From assembly GCF_030068475.1 (NCBI RefSeq), contig NZ_JAQOSP010000006.1:124001-188000 (forward strand): a DNA stretch of 64,000 nucleotides, read 5' to 3'. The DNA comes from Roseofilum acuticapitatum BLCC-M154 (lineage in GTDB: Bacteria > Cyanobacteriota > Cyanobacteriia > Cyanobacteriales > Desertifilaceae). The position numbers were made by a program, and so were the translations under genes. Shown piece after piece: positions 259 through 6,937 of the stretch (position 1 is its first letter; every line of letters starts with the position of its first letter). Below the pieces are notes generated by a model. That model was not told where the DNA came from, made no database searches, and was given only the letters and a program-made list of their open reading frames with translations.

Positions 259-816
259 TTAAGAACCCGCTAGGACTAGATCCACTTCATCTGAGCCATT
301 AGTAGATCCTTGACCAGACGTAATTTGTTCGCCGTTGACTTCGACGGCTAAAGGGGTATTGTCAAGGGTAATATTATAGTCAGTCGCGTCAGCCGTATAG
401 CCCACACTGGCGATCATCTTCCGCCCTTCATCGGTATAGACAAACGCCAACATTTGATTCTTTTCTTGTTGGTTATCGTAAGCCCAAATCACCATATATT
501 GGGTCTCTTGATATTCAAACAGTTTGGGGGGACGGGTGGGCACATAGCGCCCTGGAGAACCAAAACTGGCATCTAAAAAGCCTTGTACCGAACTGGGTTC
601 GACGCTGACATATTTAATCACTGCCTCTGATGCAGAAAATGTAGCCATCTGAGCCGCAGCCGCTTCTTCTGCTGCCTCTGCTGCTGCATCATCATTGAGG
701 TCTCCTTCTGCGGGTTCCTCTTGGTCTCGGTTGCGTAAGTAATCAACGGCCATTTTTGTGCCAATTCCGCCGATGGCAGCAACACCAGCACCAATGAGTA
801 CGTTGCGAAGTTTCAT
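259..816 (-). CDS. Conserved hypothetical protein with N-terminal membrane anchor
   Basis: A 185-residue protein. Residues 1-25 (start MKLRNVLIGAGVAAIGGIG) form a basic N-terminus plus a short glycine/alanine-rich hydrophobic helix, probably a membrane anchor. Residues 30-57 are an acidic, alanine-rich linker (E/A/D repeats). The rest is a globular domain with aromatic-rich beta-strand-like segments (YQETQYMVIWAYDN, MLAFVYTDEGRKMIASVGY). I do not recognise the family. It is a lone gene facing away from the kinase-helicase gene; the roughly 230 bases between them must hold two divergent promoters. Function unknown. Confidence 0.7.
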   Translation of the reverse strand: MKLRNVLIGAGVAAIGGIGTKMAVDYLRNRDQEEPAEGDLNDDAAAEAAEEAAAAQMATFSASEAVIKYVSVEPSSVQGFLDASFGSPGRYVPTRPPKLFEYQETQYMVIWAYDNQQEKNQMLAFVYTDEGRKMIASVGYTADATDYNITLDNTPLAVEVNGEQITSGQGSTNGSDEVDLVLAGS

Positions 817-1047
817 CTTTTTTCCTGATGGTTAGAGAGCATGGGTTTAATCTACCATGTCCCCATTACCCATGGGTTAAGTTGCTTTTGAATCTTGCTG
901 TAGATGCTGGCGGCGATCGCCGTAAAATCCCCCAGTGCTGCTCTCCCTTAAAATTGAACTAACCTCTTCACAGGAAAATCTCCCCAGTAATACAGGGTTG
1001 GGCTAAGGTAGAGGGAATACTTAGCTTAACCAGTTAAACACGCAACC

Positions 1048-4000
1048 ATGCCTCGCATTATTAACGATCGCTACGTCCTCCTGCCTAACCCCCGTTCAGG
1101 TGGAATGGCAGACGTATATAAGGCCATTGACTCCCAAAAAGAAGGTCAGCAAGTAGCAGTCAAAGTCTTTAAACATGGGCAAATTGAGCCAGGAATTCAA
1201 TCAGAATCCTTCAGACGTGAAAAGCAAATTCTTGCACAACTCAAACACCCTAGCATTATTGAGCTTCTTGACTCAGGGAAAGATAAAGAAACCAAAGAAC
1301 AATTCCTTGTTTTGGCATGGATGGAGAAGAATTTAGAAGAGCTTCTTAAGGAATCACCCTTAGACGGATGGGACTCTTACTGGGAAAGGCTTGCTCTGCC
1401 AATACTAAAAGCCCTTGCCTTTGCACATGAGCGTCAATGTGTCCATCGAGATATCAAACCCAGCAACATTCTAGTCGGGCAAGATGGCAGAATCAAGTTA
1501 GCTGATTTTGGCATCTCAAAACTTAGAAGTTATTTTCACCCAACTGTCACATTACGAGAATTTGTTTCCCGTCCCTTCACGCCACCAGAAGAAGATGATG
1601 GATCGTACCCATATACCCGTGATGTATTTAGTTTTGGGGTAGTGACACTAAAATGCCTGACAAATGTTGATCTGGTTGACTACGCTAGTATTCAAACGGC
1701 GATCGCTAATCTTGACGCACCACCCGAAATTATCGAGATTATTGAACATTCAGTTGCAACCGATCCTTCTAAACGGCAACTCAATGCAGAAGTCTTGTTA
1801 GCAGAAATAGATGCTATTCAGCAGAAGCGACTTAGAACTCAGACAACTCTGGTTAAATCTTGCTACTTAAAATTGACTCCAAAGTGTTTAAATAGTCTTC
1901 GAGATACACTAGGCATCTCATCTGAAAATGAAATCCAGCAGGTCATTCTTGATGACCTAAATGGTGAAGTAAATTGTGGAATTCGACCTTATAAATTCAA
2001 AAATAATGATAGTTACTCTGAGCGAGATCACTACGAAATTTACGGTAGCTCTTATCGATATCATGTAACAGTAGACGATAGGCGGAAGGATCATCTTGTT
2101 ATCTTTACTGCTTGGAATACACCCCATTCTCAACTGGAACAGAGACGAGATCTAGCATGGAGTTTGCCCTATCAATTTAAGTTTGGCACTCCCACCTATT
2201 CATACGAAGCTGTAGAGATTATTCAGGAGTTACAAGATGCAGTTGTTGAGCATGAAGCAACTGTCAAAGAGCAGGTTATCGAAAAAGAAAAACAGAAGGT
2301 ATTTCAAGTTTGGTGGGATATCCTGAGAGCTAAGACTGACTGGGAACAGCAGCGAGAGAAAGCGCTTAAGTATCTTACCTTCAAAACCGATCGTAATCGA
2401 GTCATTTTTCAATTAGCAGAATTGCCTGAAGATGACATCATTGGGCAATCTCGTCATGTCAAAAATTCTAAGGGTTTCAGCCTATTAGGTGGAGATGTTA
2501 TAGAGGTAGAAAGTGATGAATTACATCTATATGTTAGATACGGACAAACAGATCGACTACCTCAACAGGGTGAACTTTCTTTCGATACTCGATTAGCTGA
2601 AATTGCGATTAATCGACAGAAAAGAGCTTTAGATGCCATTCGATACGATCGCGCTGTTCGTTCTGATTTGCGAAATCTATTAATCAACCCCGATCAAATT
2701 AAAAGTCCTACTTTAGAGTCTGAAGTTCAGTTTATCCAGGATTTGAATGCATCACAGCAGGAAGTTGTTAGATCTGCCCTCTCAATGCAAGACTTTTTGT
2801 TGGTACAGGGACCACCAGGTACGGGAAAAACCACTTTTATCACGGAAGTTATACTACAAACACTTCAACAAAATCCTGAAGCACGAATTTTACTTAGCTC
2901 TCAAACTCATGTTGCGCTAGATAATGTATTAGAACGGATTCAAGCTAAGAATGCACACTTGAAACTCATCCGAATTGGCAGTTCCGAAAGAGTTTCAGAA
3001 GGTGTTCACTCTTTACTTTTAGAGGAGCAAATGGAGAAATGGCGCGAGGATGCACTAGCCAAAAGTCAAGATTTTCTAGCTGCTTGGTCGGTGAATCATG
3101 GAATATCTAAAAAACAGTTGGAGAAAGCAATTTTATTCCAAGAACTCAAAAATATTGTGCTAGAGATGGAAAATGTGAGGGTGGAACTAGAGCGTGCCAA
3201 GCAAGAAAAAGAAGAGAATCACCCTAATTCAGAAAGTTTTCAAGGGAAACAAAAACGAAGGATTTTAGCGGCACAAGAAGAAGAGTTTAGCCAATTAAAA
3301 GAAGAAATCGAAGAATTACAGAAAAAGGCAAAATTTTTACGAGATAAACAAAAGCAAAAAGTCAAGCGTCTTCAGCAAATAACTAAACTCAAAGCTAATG
3401 AGTTATTAAAATCGACCAGTGTAGAGCTAGAGCATGAGAGCAATAATTTGATTGACCCAAATGCACCCAACGCTAAATTACTTCAGAAACTTATAAACCT
3501 GCAAACAGAATGGTTCGATCAGTTTGGTCGTAATGAACGTTTTAACGATCCATTAATTAAGCGATCGCAACTTGTTGCTGGAACTTGTATCGGCATTTCA
3601 AGGGCAATTAACGATTCTGAATTCGACCTTTGCATTGTAGATGAGGCTTCAAAAGCAACTGCGACAGAAGTCTTAGTACCAATGTCGCGTTCCAAAAAGT
3701 GGCTGTTGGTAGGAGATCCAAAACAACTTCCACCCTTTCAAGATGAAGCCAGTCGAAATACTGGTTTTCTTGAGCAATACGAATTAACTCTAGAGGATGT
3801 TCGGGAAACTTTGTTCGATCGCCTTTTAAGAATATTACCGGATGAATGCCAGCAACTGCTGGCTACTCAACATCGAATGGTAGAACCAATTGGTAAACTC
3901 ATTAGTAGCTGTTTTTATGATGAAAAATTAGAAAGTAGCGGCCCTGAAATCAATAAGGTTTTAAGTAGAGTTTTACCCAAACCTGTTACGTGGCTTACGA

Positions 4001-4497
4001 CATCAAAGATTCCTAACAGTCGCGAGCAAAGTGCTAATTCTAGCTTTGATAATTCCTGTGAAGTGACTGTCATCTTTCAATGGTTGAAGCAACTCAACCA
4101 AGCAGCAACGGAAGCTCAGAGGAACTATAAAGTAGCAGTTTTAAGTGGTTATGCGGCACAGTTGAAATTGCTGAAGCGTAGGTTAGATGCAAAACAACGT
4201 AGCTTGCAGGCATTAGCAATTGAGTGCAATACCGTTGATGCTTTTCAGGGACGTGAAGCTGATATCCTAATTTATTCAGTTACTCGCTCCAACAAAGATG
4301 GAAAAATCGGCTTTTTACGTGATGAAGCTAGGTTGAATGTTGCCTTATCTAGAGGGCGAGTTGGTCTTTTAATTGTAGGCGATCATCAGTTTTGCCGATC
4401 GCTGAATCATAGCCCTTTGAGTAACGTTTTACACTACATTGAACAACACCCAAAAGAGTGCGTTTGTAAGGAGGTAAGCGATGAATGTCTCTTATGA
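1048..4497 (+). CDS. mkoA: Ser/Thr protein kinase fused to SF1 (COG1112-type) helicase; Mokosh type I MkoA-like
   Basis: A 1149-residue fusion. Residues 8-260 form a Hanks-type kinase: Lys39 in VAVK, catalytic loop VHRDIKPSN (131-140), DFG at 153-155. The glycine-rich loop is degenerate (NPRSGGMADV). Residues 265-560 are an uncharacterised linker. From about 565 to the end lies a superfamily 1 helicase of the Upf1/DNA2 (COG1112) type: Walker A GPPGTGKTT (588-596), Walker B DEAS (865-868), GDPKQLPP (889-896), QHRM (941-944), DAFQGREADILIYSVTRS (1064-1081) and VALSRGR. A charged coiled coil (about 690-790) is inserted between Walker A and B. All catalytic motifs look intact. The gene overlaps the PLD nuclease gene by 17 bases. 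Kinase-helicase plus PLD is the published composition of type I Mokosh phage defence; the defence role here is inferred from that architecture. Confidence 0.88.
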   Translation: MPRIINDRYVLLPNPRSGGMADVYKAIDSQKEGQQVAVKVFKHGQIEPGIQSESFRREKQILAQLKHPSIIELLDSGKDKETKEQFLVLAWMEKNLEELLKESPLDGWDSYWERLALPILKALAFAHERQCVHRDIKPSNILVGQDGRIKLADFGISKLRSYFHPTVTLREFVSRPFTPPEEDDGSYPYTRDVFSFGVVTLKCLTNVDLVDYASIQTAIANLDAPPEIIEIIEHSVATDPSKRQLNAEVLLAEIDAIQQKRLRTQTTLVKSCYLKLTPKCLNSLRDTLGISSENEIQQVILDDLNGEVNCGIRPYKFKNNDSYSERDHYEIYGSSYRYHVTVDDRRKDHLVIFTAWNTPHSQLEQRRDLAWSLPYQFKFGTPTYSYEAVEIIQELQDAVVEHEATVKEQVIEKEKQKVFQVWWDILRAKTDWEQQREKALKYLTFKTDRNRVIFQLAELPEDDIIGQSRHVKNSKGFSLLGGDVIEVESDELHLYVRYGQTDRLPQQGELSFDTRLAEIAINRQKRALDAIRYDRAVRSDLRNLLINPDQIKSPTLESEVQFIQDLNASQQEVVRSALSMQDFLLVQGPPGTGKTTFITEVILQTLQQNPEARILLSSQTHVALDNVLERIQAKNAHLKLIRIGSSERVSEGVHSLLLEEQMEKWREDALAKSQDFLAAWSVNHGISKKQLEKAILFQELKNIVLEMENVRVELERAKQEKEENHPNSESFQGKQKRRILAAQEEEFSQLKEEIEELQKKAKFLRDKQKQKVKRLQQITKLKANELLKSTSVELEHESNNLIDPNAPNAKLLQKLINLQTEWFDQFGRNERFNDPLIKRSQLVAGTCIGISRAINDSEFDLCIVDEASKATATEVLVPMSRSKKWLLVGDPKQLPPFQDEASRNTGFLEQYELTLEDVRETLFDRLLRILPDECQQLLATQHRMVEPIGKLISSCFYDEKLESSGPEINKVLSRVLPKPVTWLTTSKIPNSREQSANSSFDNSCEVTVIFQWLKQLNQAATEAQRNYKVAVLSGYAAQLKLLKRRLDAKQRSLQALAIECNTVDAFQGREADILIYSVTRSNKDGKIGFLRDEARLNVALSRGRVGLLIVGDHQFCRSLNHSPLSNVLHYIEQHPKECVCKEVSDECLL

Positions 4498-6004
4498 AGA
4501 TCTACGCTGTTATGATAACCGTCCTGGCTTTGACTTAGTGAGTTGCCAAGAAGTTGGTTTGCCTGTTTATAAAATTACCGTTGATGTTCTGACTCAGATT
4601 CGCAAGTCGATTCCGCCAATTGAGGAGTTTGTTCTAAGATCGATTGATGCTGGGTTATCTTCTGAAGAGGAAATCGCAGGATTTTTAGGTTTAGAACTCT
4701 CGACAACGAGCGAGGCAATGGTGAATCTTCGACTGAGTGAAGATATTGATTTAATTGCTCCTGATCCTTCACAGATTCCAACATGGAAACTAACTAAGAA
4801 GGGTGAGAGGACTTTAAAAGAAGCTAAAATCATTGTTCCAGAAGAACGGACTTTTGATATTAATTTTGATGGACTGCTACGAATCCCACGTTGGTATGGT
4901 CGATTTGAGAAGGCTTTACTAAAGCCAAAAGATTTACGAGATAAAGGAATTTTAGAAATTGAACCTTCACCTAAGAATCCTCCAGAATTATCTGACTTGA
5001 GTATTAAGGATATTGATAAAGTCATTCGTGAAGTTCTTGGGAATGGCAAAGGACTGAAGTCTAAGAATGACAATGAGTTAGATATATTAGCATTAAAGGA
5101 AATTGAACGTAGGCAAAGATTTTTTCAGCCATCTACTGCCCTTGTGTATAAGGCAAAAGATAGTGATGAAATTCAGGTTGCGTTTATTGTTGATGGTCTT
5201 CTGTCAAGTGACCATGAGGCAGCCTTCGCTCGTTCAAATGGAGCCAAGAAAATTACCAGCCAGATTCTTAATGCTTTACAGGAAAATGAGCCTCTTAAAC
5301 TTGCAACAGAGATTTTAGGAAACGACTTTGTAGCCAATAACTTAATTGATTTAGATCCTATAGTCGAACAAGTCTCTGAAGCGACATCGAAAATAGAATC
5401 TGAAATAGAATTAACCCAAAAACAATTAGAGCAGACAGATGACCCAAGTGAACAAAATGATTTTAGGAAAAAACTCAAGGAGCAAGAAAACGAGATAGCA
5501 GGACTTAAAGATCAACTACAGTCTGTAATTTCTTCTTGTCCTATGCGATGGTTAGAGATGTACGATCATCGTCCTCTTTTGGAACAAGCCTTGAAAGATA
5601 CACAAGAACGTTTGATGATCGTTTCTCCCTGGATTCGAGCTAATTCTGTCAACTCATGGTTTCTCCAGCAACTTCAGAATCTACTGAAACGAGGAGTCCA
5701 AGTTTTTATCGGATATGGCTTGGGGGAGAAAGACGAAAATCGTTATTCGAGAGATATTAAGGCTGAAAAAACTCTACAAAAGTTGGCAGATCAATATCCT
5801 AAATCATTTATCCTTAAACGTTTAGGAGATACTCATGCTAAGATCCTGATTTCAGATACTAAGTTTGCGGTAACTACCAGTTTTAATTGGCTATCATTCA
5901 AGGGCGAACGAGATCGGACATTTCGTGATGAACGCGGGACATTAGTTTCTGATCCTGAGAAAATCGACGAGTTATTCGACTGTTATGAAGCGAAAATGAG
6001 ATAG
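4481..6004 (+). CDS. mkoB: Phospholipase D-like nuclease; Mokosh type I MkoB-like
   Basis: A 507-residue protein translated from an ATG with a near-perfect Shine-Dalgarno (AAGGAGGT) that lies inside the end of the kinase-helicase gene, so the two are translationally coupled. Residues about 45-115 look like a winged-helix segment (ending WKLTKKGERTL). Residues 295-350 form a coiled coil. The C-terminus (355-505) is a PLD-type domain with a single HxK signature, THAKILISD (His452, Lys454), followed by TTSFNWLSF. PLD nucleases with one half-site usually dimerise to build the active site. The partner kinase-helicase and the tight coupling support a two-component defence system. Whether the target is RNA or DNA cannot be told from sequence. 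Confidence 0.83.
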   Translation: MNVSYEDLRCYDNRPGFDLVSCQEVGLPVYKITVDVLTQIRKSIPPIEEFVLRSIDAGLSSEEEIAGFLGLELSTTSEAMVNLRLSEDIDLIAPDPSQIPTWKLTKKGERTLKEAKIIVPEERTFDINFDGLLRIPRWYGRFEKALLKPKDLRDKGILEIEPSPKNPPELSDLSIKDIDKVIREVLGNGKGLKSKNDNELDILALKEIERRQRFFQPSTALVYKAKDSDEIQVAFIVDGLLSSDHEAAFARSNGAKKITSQILNALQENEPLKLATEILGNDFVANNLIDLDPIVEQVSEATSKIESEIELTQKQLEQTDDPSEQNDFRKKLKEQENEIAGLKDQLQSVISSCPMRWLEMYDHRPLLEQALKDTQERLMIVSPWIRANSVNSWFLQQLQNLLKRGVQVFIGYGLGEKDENRYSRDIKAEKTLQKLADQYPKSFILKRLGDTHAKILISDTKFAVTTSFNWLSFKGERDRTFRDERGTLVSDPEKIDELFDCYEAKMR

Positions 6005-6130
6005 AAGCTTCCAGTTATATTGAGGAAATTTAGAACCCATTATATATAATAGCAGGTAGGGTAGCTGAGAAACTCGGTTTCTGGGTTGACAATCATGCAA
6101 TCATCATGTTCAAAAAATCAGGAGGAAAAC

Positions 6131-6937
6131 ATGAATTCATATGGTATAGAGCGGGAATGGTGGACGCAGCAATGGTTAGATTTGCTCAATTCTTATCGGT
6201 TTAAAAAACGACTGGAGCGGGGGCGAAACTATGCGCGGGAAGGGAATGTGTTATCCATTCAGTTTCGAGAGCAAAAAGTGGTGGCAGAAGTGCAAGGTAG
6301 TGATACTGAACCCTATCATCTTTCCATTTGGTTAGATGCGTTTACCTCGGAAGATTGGGATCATGTAATTGAGACTTTATCGGAAAAAGCGATTTATGTC
6401 GCCAAATTGTTAGCGGGAGAAATGCCGGATAATATTGAATCGGTATTTGCGGCTAATGGGTTAAGTTTATTTCCATTTACTCTAGGTGAAGTTCATTCTC
6501 GCTGTAGTTGTCCCGATAAGGCCAATCCTTGTAAGCATATTGCGGCTGTGTATTATTTATTGGGCGATCGCTTCGGAGCCGATCCCTTTGTTCTGTTTCA
6601 ATTGCGCGGCAAAAGCAAGGATGACATCATCTCTGCCCTGCGGGAAAAGCGGGGGATTTCGGCAGAAAACGCCAGCAATGAACCCCCACCCTTGACCTAT
6701 CCCCAGGTTGCTCTAGACCAGTTCTGGCACTACGATCGCCAGTTAGAGTCGTCCCTAGTCGTCATTGCTCCCCTAGGAACTTCAGAAACCGTGTTAGATC
6801 TCCTAGGGCCAATTATCAGTGAGCGCACCAAAATCAGCGAATCTAAACAGTTAATGACTTACTTGAACAGCCTATATCAGGAAGTGAGTCAAAGGGCCAC
6901 ACAAGCTGCTTTGCGGGGAGATGATTTGTCAGCCTAA
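6131..6937 (+). CDS. SWIM zinc-finger protein
   Basis: A 268-residue protein. I chose the ATG at 6131 because AGGAGGAAAAC precedes it; an upstream TTG at 6086 lacks such a site. The central motif CSCPDKANPCKH fits the SWIM zinc-finger pattern CxCx6CxH, a DNA- or protein-binding module. The N-terminus (EREWWTQQWLDLLNSYRFKKRLERGRNY region) matches the common form of bacterial SWIM proteins that often sit beside SNF2-type helicases, but no SNF2 gene is visible here. It begins about 125 bases after the PLD nuclease gene, so it probably has its own promoter. A link to the defence operon is possible but unsupported. Confidence 0.78.
   Translation: MNSYGIEREWWTQQWLDLLNSYRFKKRLERGRNYAREGNVLSIQFREQKVVAEVQGSDTEPYHLSIWLDAFTSEDWDHVIETLSEKAIYVAKLLAGEMPDNIESVFAANGLSLFPFTLGEVHSRCSCPDKANPCKHIAAVYYLLGDRFGADPFVLFQLRGKSKDDIISALREKRGISAENASNEPPPLTYPQVALDQFWHYDRQLESSLVVIAPLGTSETVLDLLGPIISERTKISESKQLMTYLNSLYQEVSQRATQAALRGDDLSA

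Follow-up and report, generated by a model that had tools for sequence, protein, structure and literature searches.

A probable mobile type I Mokosh antiphage operon in Roseofilum acuticapitatum and comparative leads on its kinase and effector parts

Introduction

We describe a two-gene operon, mkoA–mkoB, in a stretch of 64,000 nucleotides from the cyanobacterium Roseofilum acuticapitatum BLCC-M154 (contig NZ_JAQOSP010000006.1, positions 124,001 to 188,000; hereafter the window, along which positions without another label are counted). From its sequence, the operon is very probably an intact, mobile antiphage operon of the type I Mokosh system. Mokosh was reportedly first described by Millman et al. 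in 2022. In the available passages of PMC11672841, type I Mokosh has two separately encoded components, a helicase that bears a kinase domain and a PLD nuclease, and the mechanism of Mokosh is still given as unknown in the part of a 2026 review that was accessible (PMC12926258). Comparison of the window with related genomes and plasmids (G, C and L numbers are our handles for genomes, contigs and loci) suggests that the C-terminal part of MkoB is exchangeable, and identifies a plasmid branch in which the kinase is accompanied by a phosphatase gene.

Results

Assignment to type I Mokosh

Both genes lie on the forward strand and begin with ATG. The first, mkoA (1048–4497), encodes a fusion of a Ser/Thr kinase and a UPF1-like superfamily 1 (SF1) helicase of 1149 residues; the second, mkoB (4481–6004), encodes a 507-residue protein consisting of a winged-helix part, an adaptor region, a coiled coil and a PLD part. 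A preliminary description of this DNA had proposed two coupled open reading frames (ORFs), with a ribosome binding site for the second, as a Mokosh type I-like operon. Its coordinates are exact: the mkoA stop and the mkoB start overlap by 17 bases (4481–4497, forward strand), and the ribosome binding site, AAGGAGGT, is found at 4468–4475 on the same strand, within the end of mkoA and ahead of the mkoB ATG. An overlap recurs in 15 of 17 annotated mkoA/mkoB pairs of relatives, and in 13 of those it measures 4 nucleotides. Promoter- and terminator-like sites are not in excess, occurring at or below the level of shuffled sequence.

The assignment to Mokosh, which better matches to a non-defence family would have weakened, was upheld by the PADLOC profiles, since Mokosh models are the best matches of both proteins. 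MkoA matches PDLC03920 with E 6.9e-269 over residues 3–1141 (profile positions 5–1108 of 1112), and MkoB matches PDLC03922 with E 4.1e-90 (best stretch 3–386 of 610, plus a second stretch). The near end-to-end match of MkoA and the separate, adjacent PLD gene agree with the proposed type I identity. In composition, MkoA joins an SF1 helicase (COG1112, by published description) to a Ser/Thr kinase, the PLD-family protein has a gene of its own, the two genes are adjacent with a conserved partnership, and the catalytic residues of kinase, helicase and PLD domain are all intact. The NERD domain that the available part of PMC10952713 lists for type I Mokosh does not appear in the description in PMC11672841, as far as that text was accessible; it is absent from the 25 of 28 Pfam families listed for MkoA and from the four for MkoB.

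The specificity of the search depends on its threshold. At E ≤ 1e-120 the MkoA profile matched none of 14 control genomes, whereas at E ≤ 0.001 it matched 13 of them and gave 33 matches in the R. acuticapitatum genome, 31 of these to the kinase part only. The loose search is therefore unspecific, and only a full-length match counts. For MkoB, one of the 14 controls matched at 1e-15 and nine at 0.001. By these measures the genome holds one full MkoA and one MkoB, with a weak MkoB match elsewhere (5.4e-4).

Compared with two Roseofilum relatives for mkoA and three for mkoB, whole-gene ratios of nonsynonymous to synonymous divergence (dN/dS) are 0.205–0.338, and per-domain values do not exceed 0.47 wherever dS is computable. 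The whole-gene values suggest that purifying selection acts on both genes.

The kinase–helicase protein MkoA

The kinase domain occupies about residues 1–260 of MkoA (1048–1827, forward strand), with Pfam Pkinase at 17–237 (1.4e-33), VAVK containing K39, HRD at 133 and DFG at 153. The helicase core follows at residues 566–1113 (2743–4386, forward strand), where AAA_11 (566–897, 1.8e-46) and AAA_12 (919–1113, 2.1e-45) enclose the motifs GPPGTGKT at 588–595 (Walker A, K594), DEAS at 865 (DE 865–866), QHRM at 941, QGRE at 1067 and SRGR at 1101 (R1102). We take these motifs, and those of MkoB discussed below, to have the usual catalytic roles. The earlier claim of an intact kinase and an intact helicase in one 1149-residue protein is borne out, with K39 and K594 at the catalytic positions and Pfam in agreement. 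In an alignment of 25 MkoA proteins K39, E58, H133, D135, N140, D153 and the Walker residues are invariant (25/25). The top PDB sequence matches of the helicase are SMUBP-2, DNA2 and NAM7/UPF1, and its score against the IGHMBP2-family model is 267 bits, below the cut-off of 348.9. Outside the alignment of 25 stands the MkoA of G028 (mkoA–mkoB pair at L152:6572-13208), a protein of 1591 residues identified by the Mokosh profile, which has HRN in place of HRD and no DFG and is thus a pseudokinase by its motifs. The MkoB of the same genome has 619 residues and two HxK motifs.

A coiled-coil insertion within the helicase, also put forward in the preliminary description, is probable at about residues 688–778 (3109–3381, forward strand). 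It is plausible in that the structure model contains two helices (688–724 and 741–778) in this region, and residues 661–830 are among the least conserved stretches in the alignment; it is unproven in that the model is otherwise poor, with a mean predicted local distance difference test score (pLDDT) of 44.1 and a predicted template modelling score (pTM) of 0.29. The models of both proteins were built from shallow alignments (seven and six rows) because the rows were restricted to the window and related loci.

The two halves of MkoB

The N-terminal half of MkoB contains a MarR-like winged-helix region at about residues 45–115 (4613–4825, forward strand). It resembles a MarR-type regulator in the PDB (profile match E 2.8e-4), and residues 51–110 form blocks with pLDDT of 71–85 in a model that is otherwise poor (mean pLDDT 51.5, pTM 0.25). 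The C-terminal half carries the PLD nuclease-like domain (5582–5890, forward strand), where PLDc_2 matches residues 368–470 (1e-6; 29 bits against a Pfam cut-off of 27). It has one HxK(x4)D motif, HAKILISD at 452 (H452, K454), and S-F-N at 467–469, so that the single HxK site described previously is indeed present, with H452 on the catalytic position.

The C-terminal half is the part that varies among relatives. HxK is retained in 22 of 28 aligned MkoB proteins; the six without it comprise four from Hyphomicrobiales, that of M. marinum (VAK) and that of G187. In the G187 protein (L074:1497-2807) the N-terminal part retains its match to MkoB (1.5e-34), but the PLD half is replaced by a stretch resembling the end of the candidate defence system PDC-S68 (2.1e-45). 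A VSR/PD-(D/E)XK-like label for this C-terminal domain was considered and not used, as it is unsupported: the Pfam TPD match is only 0.0068, below the cut-off. Two MkoB proteins from Mycobacterium plasmids (L105:8950-10719 and L121:5950-7803) end in an S1 RNA-binding domain (1.2e-17 and 2.8e-14). Given the swap of the PLD half for a PDC-S68-type domain in G187, comparison of relatives suggests that the MkoB C-terminus behaves as an exchangeable effector part.

Conservation of the pair

The preliminary description would have lost ground if no PLD partner were conserved in relatives, and this was not the case. MkoA is present in 7 of 386 genomes of a sample of the phylum, with MkoB or its N-terminal half adjoining in all seven; in 16 of 195 genomes of relatives, with MkoB adjoining in all 16 (including one truncated where its contig ends, some broken copies, and G461, whose contig was matched to locus L021 by length); and, at E ≤ 1e-60, in 22 of 72,556 plasmid records, with MkoB adjacent by coordinates in all 22.

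The partnership is not reciprocal. At 1e-15 the MkoB profile matches 31 of the 386 genomes, most of which are without a full MkoA at 1e-120. In nine of ten such loci that were opened, a long helicase lies nearby; these nine cyanobacterial pairs (L158–L163 and L165–L167) place a helicase of 1434–1728 residues near an MkoB-like PLD protein, and the four of the nine helicases that were scanned gave no kinase match in Pfam. At the tenth locus, L164, no long helicase ORF is listed near the MkoB-like gene. The nine pairs are possibly a kinase-less relative of Mokosh. Besides MkoA, the R. acuticapitatum genome itself encodes a second helicase of this kind (C91:38609-42739, the same stretch as L073:4610-8740; 1376 residues, with an uncharacterised N-terminal part), near a gene that in our own reading looks like a helix–turn–helix regulator. 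It was rejected as Mokosh, its match to MkoA being only partial (6e-39, residues 909–1341).

A PP2C phosphatase gene in the Hyphomicrobiales branch

Beyond cyanobacteria the survey covered plasmids only. Among the 22 plasmid records, a PP2C phosphatase gene adjoins mkoB in all seven from Hyphomicrobiales (six opened, the seventh read from hit tables). In the six that were opened (L106, L110, L111, L112, L113 and L114) mkoA and mkoB are followed by an overlapping PP2C gene, and the six aligned PP2C proteins retain DG.GGH, GDSR, SDG and GG.DN, which we presume to have their usual roles in this family. In nine opened records of the other 15 plasmids no annotated PP2C gene stands beside mkoB, although the gene tables are incomplete. 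Among the open-access papers listed by literature searches, no title or opening of an abstract describes a pairing of PP2C with Mokosh.

The Hyphomicrobiales MkoA rows form one clade in a tree of 25, and therefore the pairing may be a single event. The pairing suggests a kinase/phosphatase switch, with the kinase as its reversible element. Because the kinase residues are invariant in the 25 MkoA proteins and a PP2C gene is present, control by phosphorylation, not specifically autophosphorylation, is likely in this branch. The plasmids L111, L112 and L113 also carry a DUF3800 gene. On the Nostoc plasmid a phosphatase gene is located about 5 kb from mkoB.

Mobility and genomic context

The operon appears to move horizontally between cyanobacteria, partly on plasmids. 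In the window it lies in what seems to be an acquired block (885–6112, no strand assigned) between conserved Roseofilum flanks, as judged from flank homology and G+C content; the right end could fall anywhere in about 6005–6113. On the left, homology to the operon-free loci of G003 and G005 stops at 884 and 864, respectively, and the gene beyond this break in the two relatives presumably encodes a transaldolase, to judge from its start. On the right, homology to relatives' loci with a SWIM gene begins at 6113–6140, with a separate 65-base match at 6045–6109 in G003. The G+C content is 38–42% over the operon versus 44–50% around it. The mechanism of insertion is not visible, because there is no long repeat at the block ends (only short words are shared between the two junctions) and the window contains neither a transfer RNA gene nor an Rfam match that reaches the gathering score.

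Within the genus, G001 and G002 have the operon beside the same 185-residue gene as the window, with different outer neighbours; G003 has a copy elsewhere, split over two frames; and G004 and G005, two of the six genomes, have no operon at the cut-offs used. Relative to G001, synonymous divergence amounts to 0.24 in mkoA, 0.52 in mkoB and 0.76 in the adjacent 185-residue gene, which suggests, with one neighbouring gene compared, a recent transfer of the operon. In a maximum-likelihood tree of the 25 MkoA proteins, the window copy groups with those of G001, Microseira and a conjugative Nostoc plasmid (100/100). The 22 plasmid records are typed as conjugative (10), mobilizable (7) and non-mobilizable (5). 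No MkoA copy was found at E ≤ 1e-60 in 50,697 phage records. In IMG/VR the MkoA alignment matched at least 16 loci among the matches listed, every one of them confined to the kinase or the surroundings of Walker A, and a scan with MkoB gave no match.

A PADLOC scan of neighbourhoods covered G138, G222 and one gene beside a third cyanobacterial copy. In G138 the BREX genes PglZ and BrxL precede the operon at a distance of 2 kb, which includes two ORFs. The G222 copy is flanked on one side by a type IIG restriction enzyme (then a DrmD-like gene) and on the other by DruE of Druantia; the gene beside the third copy has weak DrmD matches (1.2e-10).

The 185-residue gene (259–816, reverse strand) has no Pfam family above the cut-off; it is present in six of six genomes of the genus and in none of the five others searched, and the genes on its upstream side differ between species.

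Discussion

The motifs and their conservation suggest the following mechanism for type I Mokosh. The UPF1-like helicase of MkoA would load onto foreign nucleic acid and travel along it, with RNA slightly likelier than DNA. The kinase domain would be a phosphorylation switch that sets the state of the complex, the candidate substrates being MkoA itself, MkoB or a host protein. MkoB would dock on MkoA through its constant winged-helix/adaptor half, and its exchangeable PLD half would cut the nucleic acid that is sensed; as there is only one HxK, the PLD nuclease would have to dimerise. The lean towards RNA comes from the S1 fusion of the mycobacterial MkoB proteins together with a statement, in the available part of PMC11291487, that Mokosh degrades viral transcripts. 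More broadly, it is possible, and we hold this only tentatively, that type I Mokosh works as a platform switched by phosphorylation, in which the kinase decides and MkoB supplies an adaptor and an exchangeable effector, and that the Hyphomicrobiales plasmid branch, with its PLD site lost and a PP2C of its own, is a kinase/antidote defence derived from Mokosh. That branch would then be similar to KKP, an antiphage module of two kinases and a phosphatase according to the accessible text of PMC11341870. If the platform reading is true, the kinase of the window operon gates or supplements its nuclease.

Several observations weigh against reading the operon as an intact, mobile defence module with this mechanism. 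Nuclease catalysis by MkoB is not universal as far as motifs tell, because HxK is absent from all six Hyphomicrobiales MkoB proteins that were read and is VAK in M. marinum; kinase catalysis by MkoA is by the same token not universal, because the G028 protein is a pseudokinase. A relative of MkoB that is 59% identical, in G413 (L072:10016-11413), has no MkoA match within 19.9 kb and is possibly an orphan. Of 18 tabulated loci, five (L066, L067, L069, L070 and L021), some of them drafts or metagenome-assembled genomes, have an MkoA divided between two frames, and two have an MkoB that is split or contains a stop; the split MkoA copies would reflect either repeated loss or draft-assembly error. 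The neighbours of the window operon are housekeeping genes or lack a Pfam family, and therefore the window does not represent a defence island. Finally, the nearest solved helicases, SMUBP-2, DNA2 and NAM7/UPF1, act on both RNA and DNA and are compatible with either target.

The relative constancy of the two catalytic sites raises the question of which of them is the effector. The kinase residues (25/25 MkoA) vary less than the PLD site (HxK in 22/28 MkoB), and the Hyphomicrobiales branch joins an HxK-less PLD protein with a PP2C as a possible antidote. With KKP as a precedent for an antiphage kinase/phosphatase module, the kinase could itself be the effector, phosphorylating host targets on infection so that growth stops, with MkoB mainly a sensor or scaffold. 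We consider this unlikely: the flanking ORFs scanned in the window include no phosphatase and the window retains HxK, the MkoA of G028 is a pseudokinase, and the replacement of the G187 PLD half by a domain of another defence system is consistent with the effector lying on the MkoB side.

Three further explanations deny an antiphage role or a functional one. A plasmid-competition or mainly anti-plasmid system on conjugative plasmids would account for 22 plasmid records, 10 of them conjugative, against no copy among the phage records searched. Nevertheless, plasmid carriage is equally expected of a mobile antiphage system and two other copies have BREX or restriction genes in their vicinity, which makes such a role quite improbable. 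That the protein is a housekeeping or regulatory kinase–helicase for RNA decay or repair, not defence, is very improbable; the genome does contain many Hanks kinases (the 31 kinase-only profile matches) and a second helicase of such kind, and those flanking genes of the window that have a Pfam family are housekeeping genes, but the operon is patchy (seven of the 386 phylum-sample genomes, and absent from two of six in the genus), occurs on plasmids, lies near defence genes in two relatives and forms a low-G+C block. We give hardly any credence to a decaying, non-functional remnant, in spite of the frequency of broken related copies noted above, as both frames of the window are intact, all motifs are present and dN/dS stays within the per-domain limit in every domain where dS is computable.

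We therefore retain the type I Mokosh reading. The distribution of the operon points to type I Mokosh as a component of cyanobacterial defence that spreads horizontally, conjugative plasmids included. The effector swaps and the kinase–phosphatase pairing found in nature offer a concrete, testable idea of how the system is built, and show which parts to mutate first.

Comparison with known systems

Type II Mokosh (MkoC) has a similar helicase and PLD domain, but MkoC is one fused protein in the available passages of PMC11672841, whereas the window has two genes and a kinase. MkoC scores far lower, at 4.6e-38 and 4.6e-19, and type II was ruled out by the two ORFs in place of one fusion. DrmC of DISARM shows a weak PLD-like likeness (1.4e-7 in PADLOC; 1.3e-5, far below the cut-off, in another search), and DISARM was rejected because no partner genes stand next to the operon, the flanking ORFs scanned with Pfam being housekeeping genes or without a family. 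KKP likewise employs Ser/Thr kinases in phage defence, and a phosphatase gene occurs in the Hyphomicrobiales relatives of the operon. The window differs from KKP in pairing a kinase–helicase with a PLD protein; no phosphatase family occurs among the flanking ORFs scanned, and the KKP-like combination is seen only in the Hyphomicrobiales relatives. With type I Mokosh the window shares both the kinase–helicase and the separate, adjacent PLD gene, and there is no essential difference. The operon of the window thus adds an ordinary and well-preserved example to a system already described, and more is to be gained from the comparative leads than from this locus.

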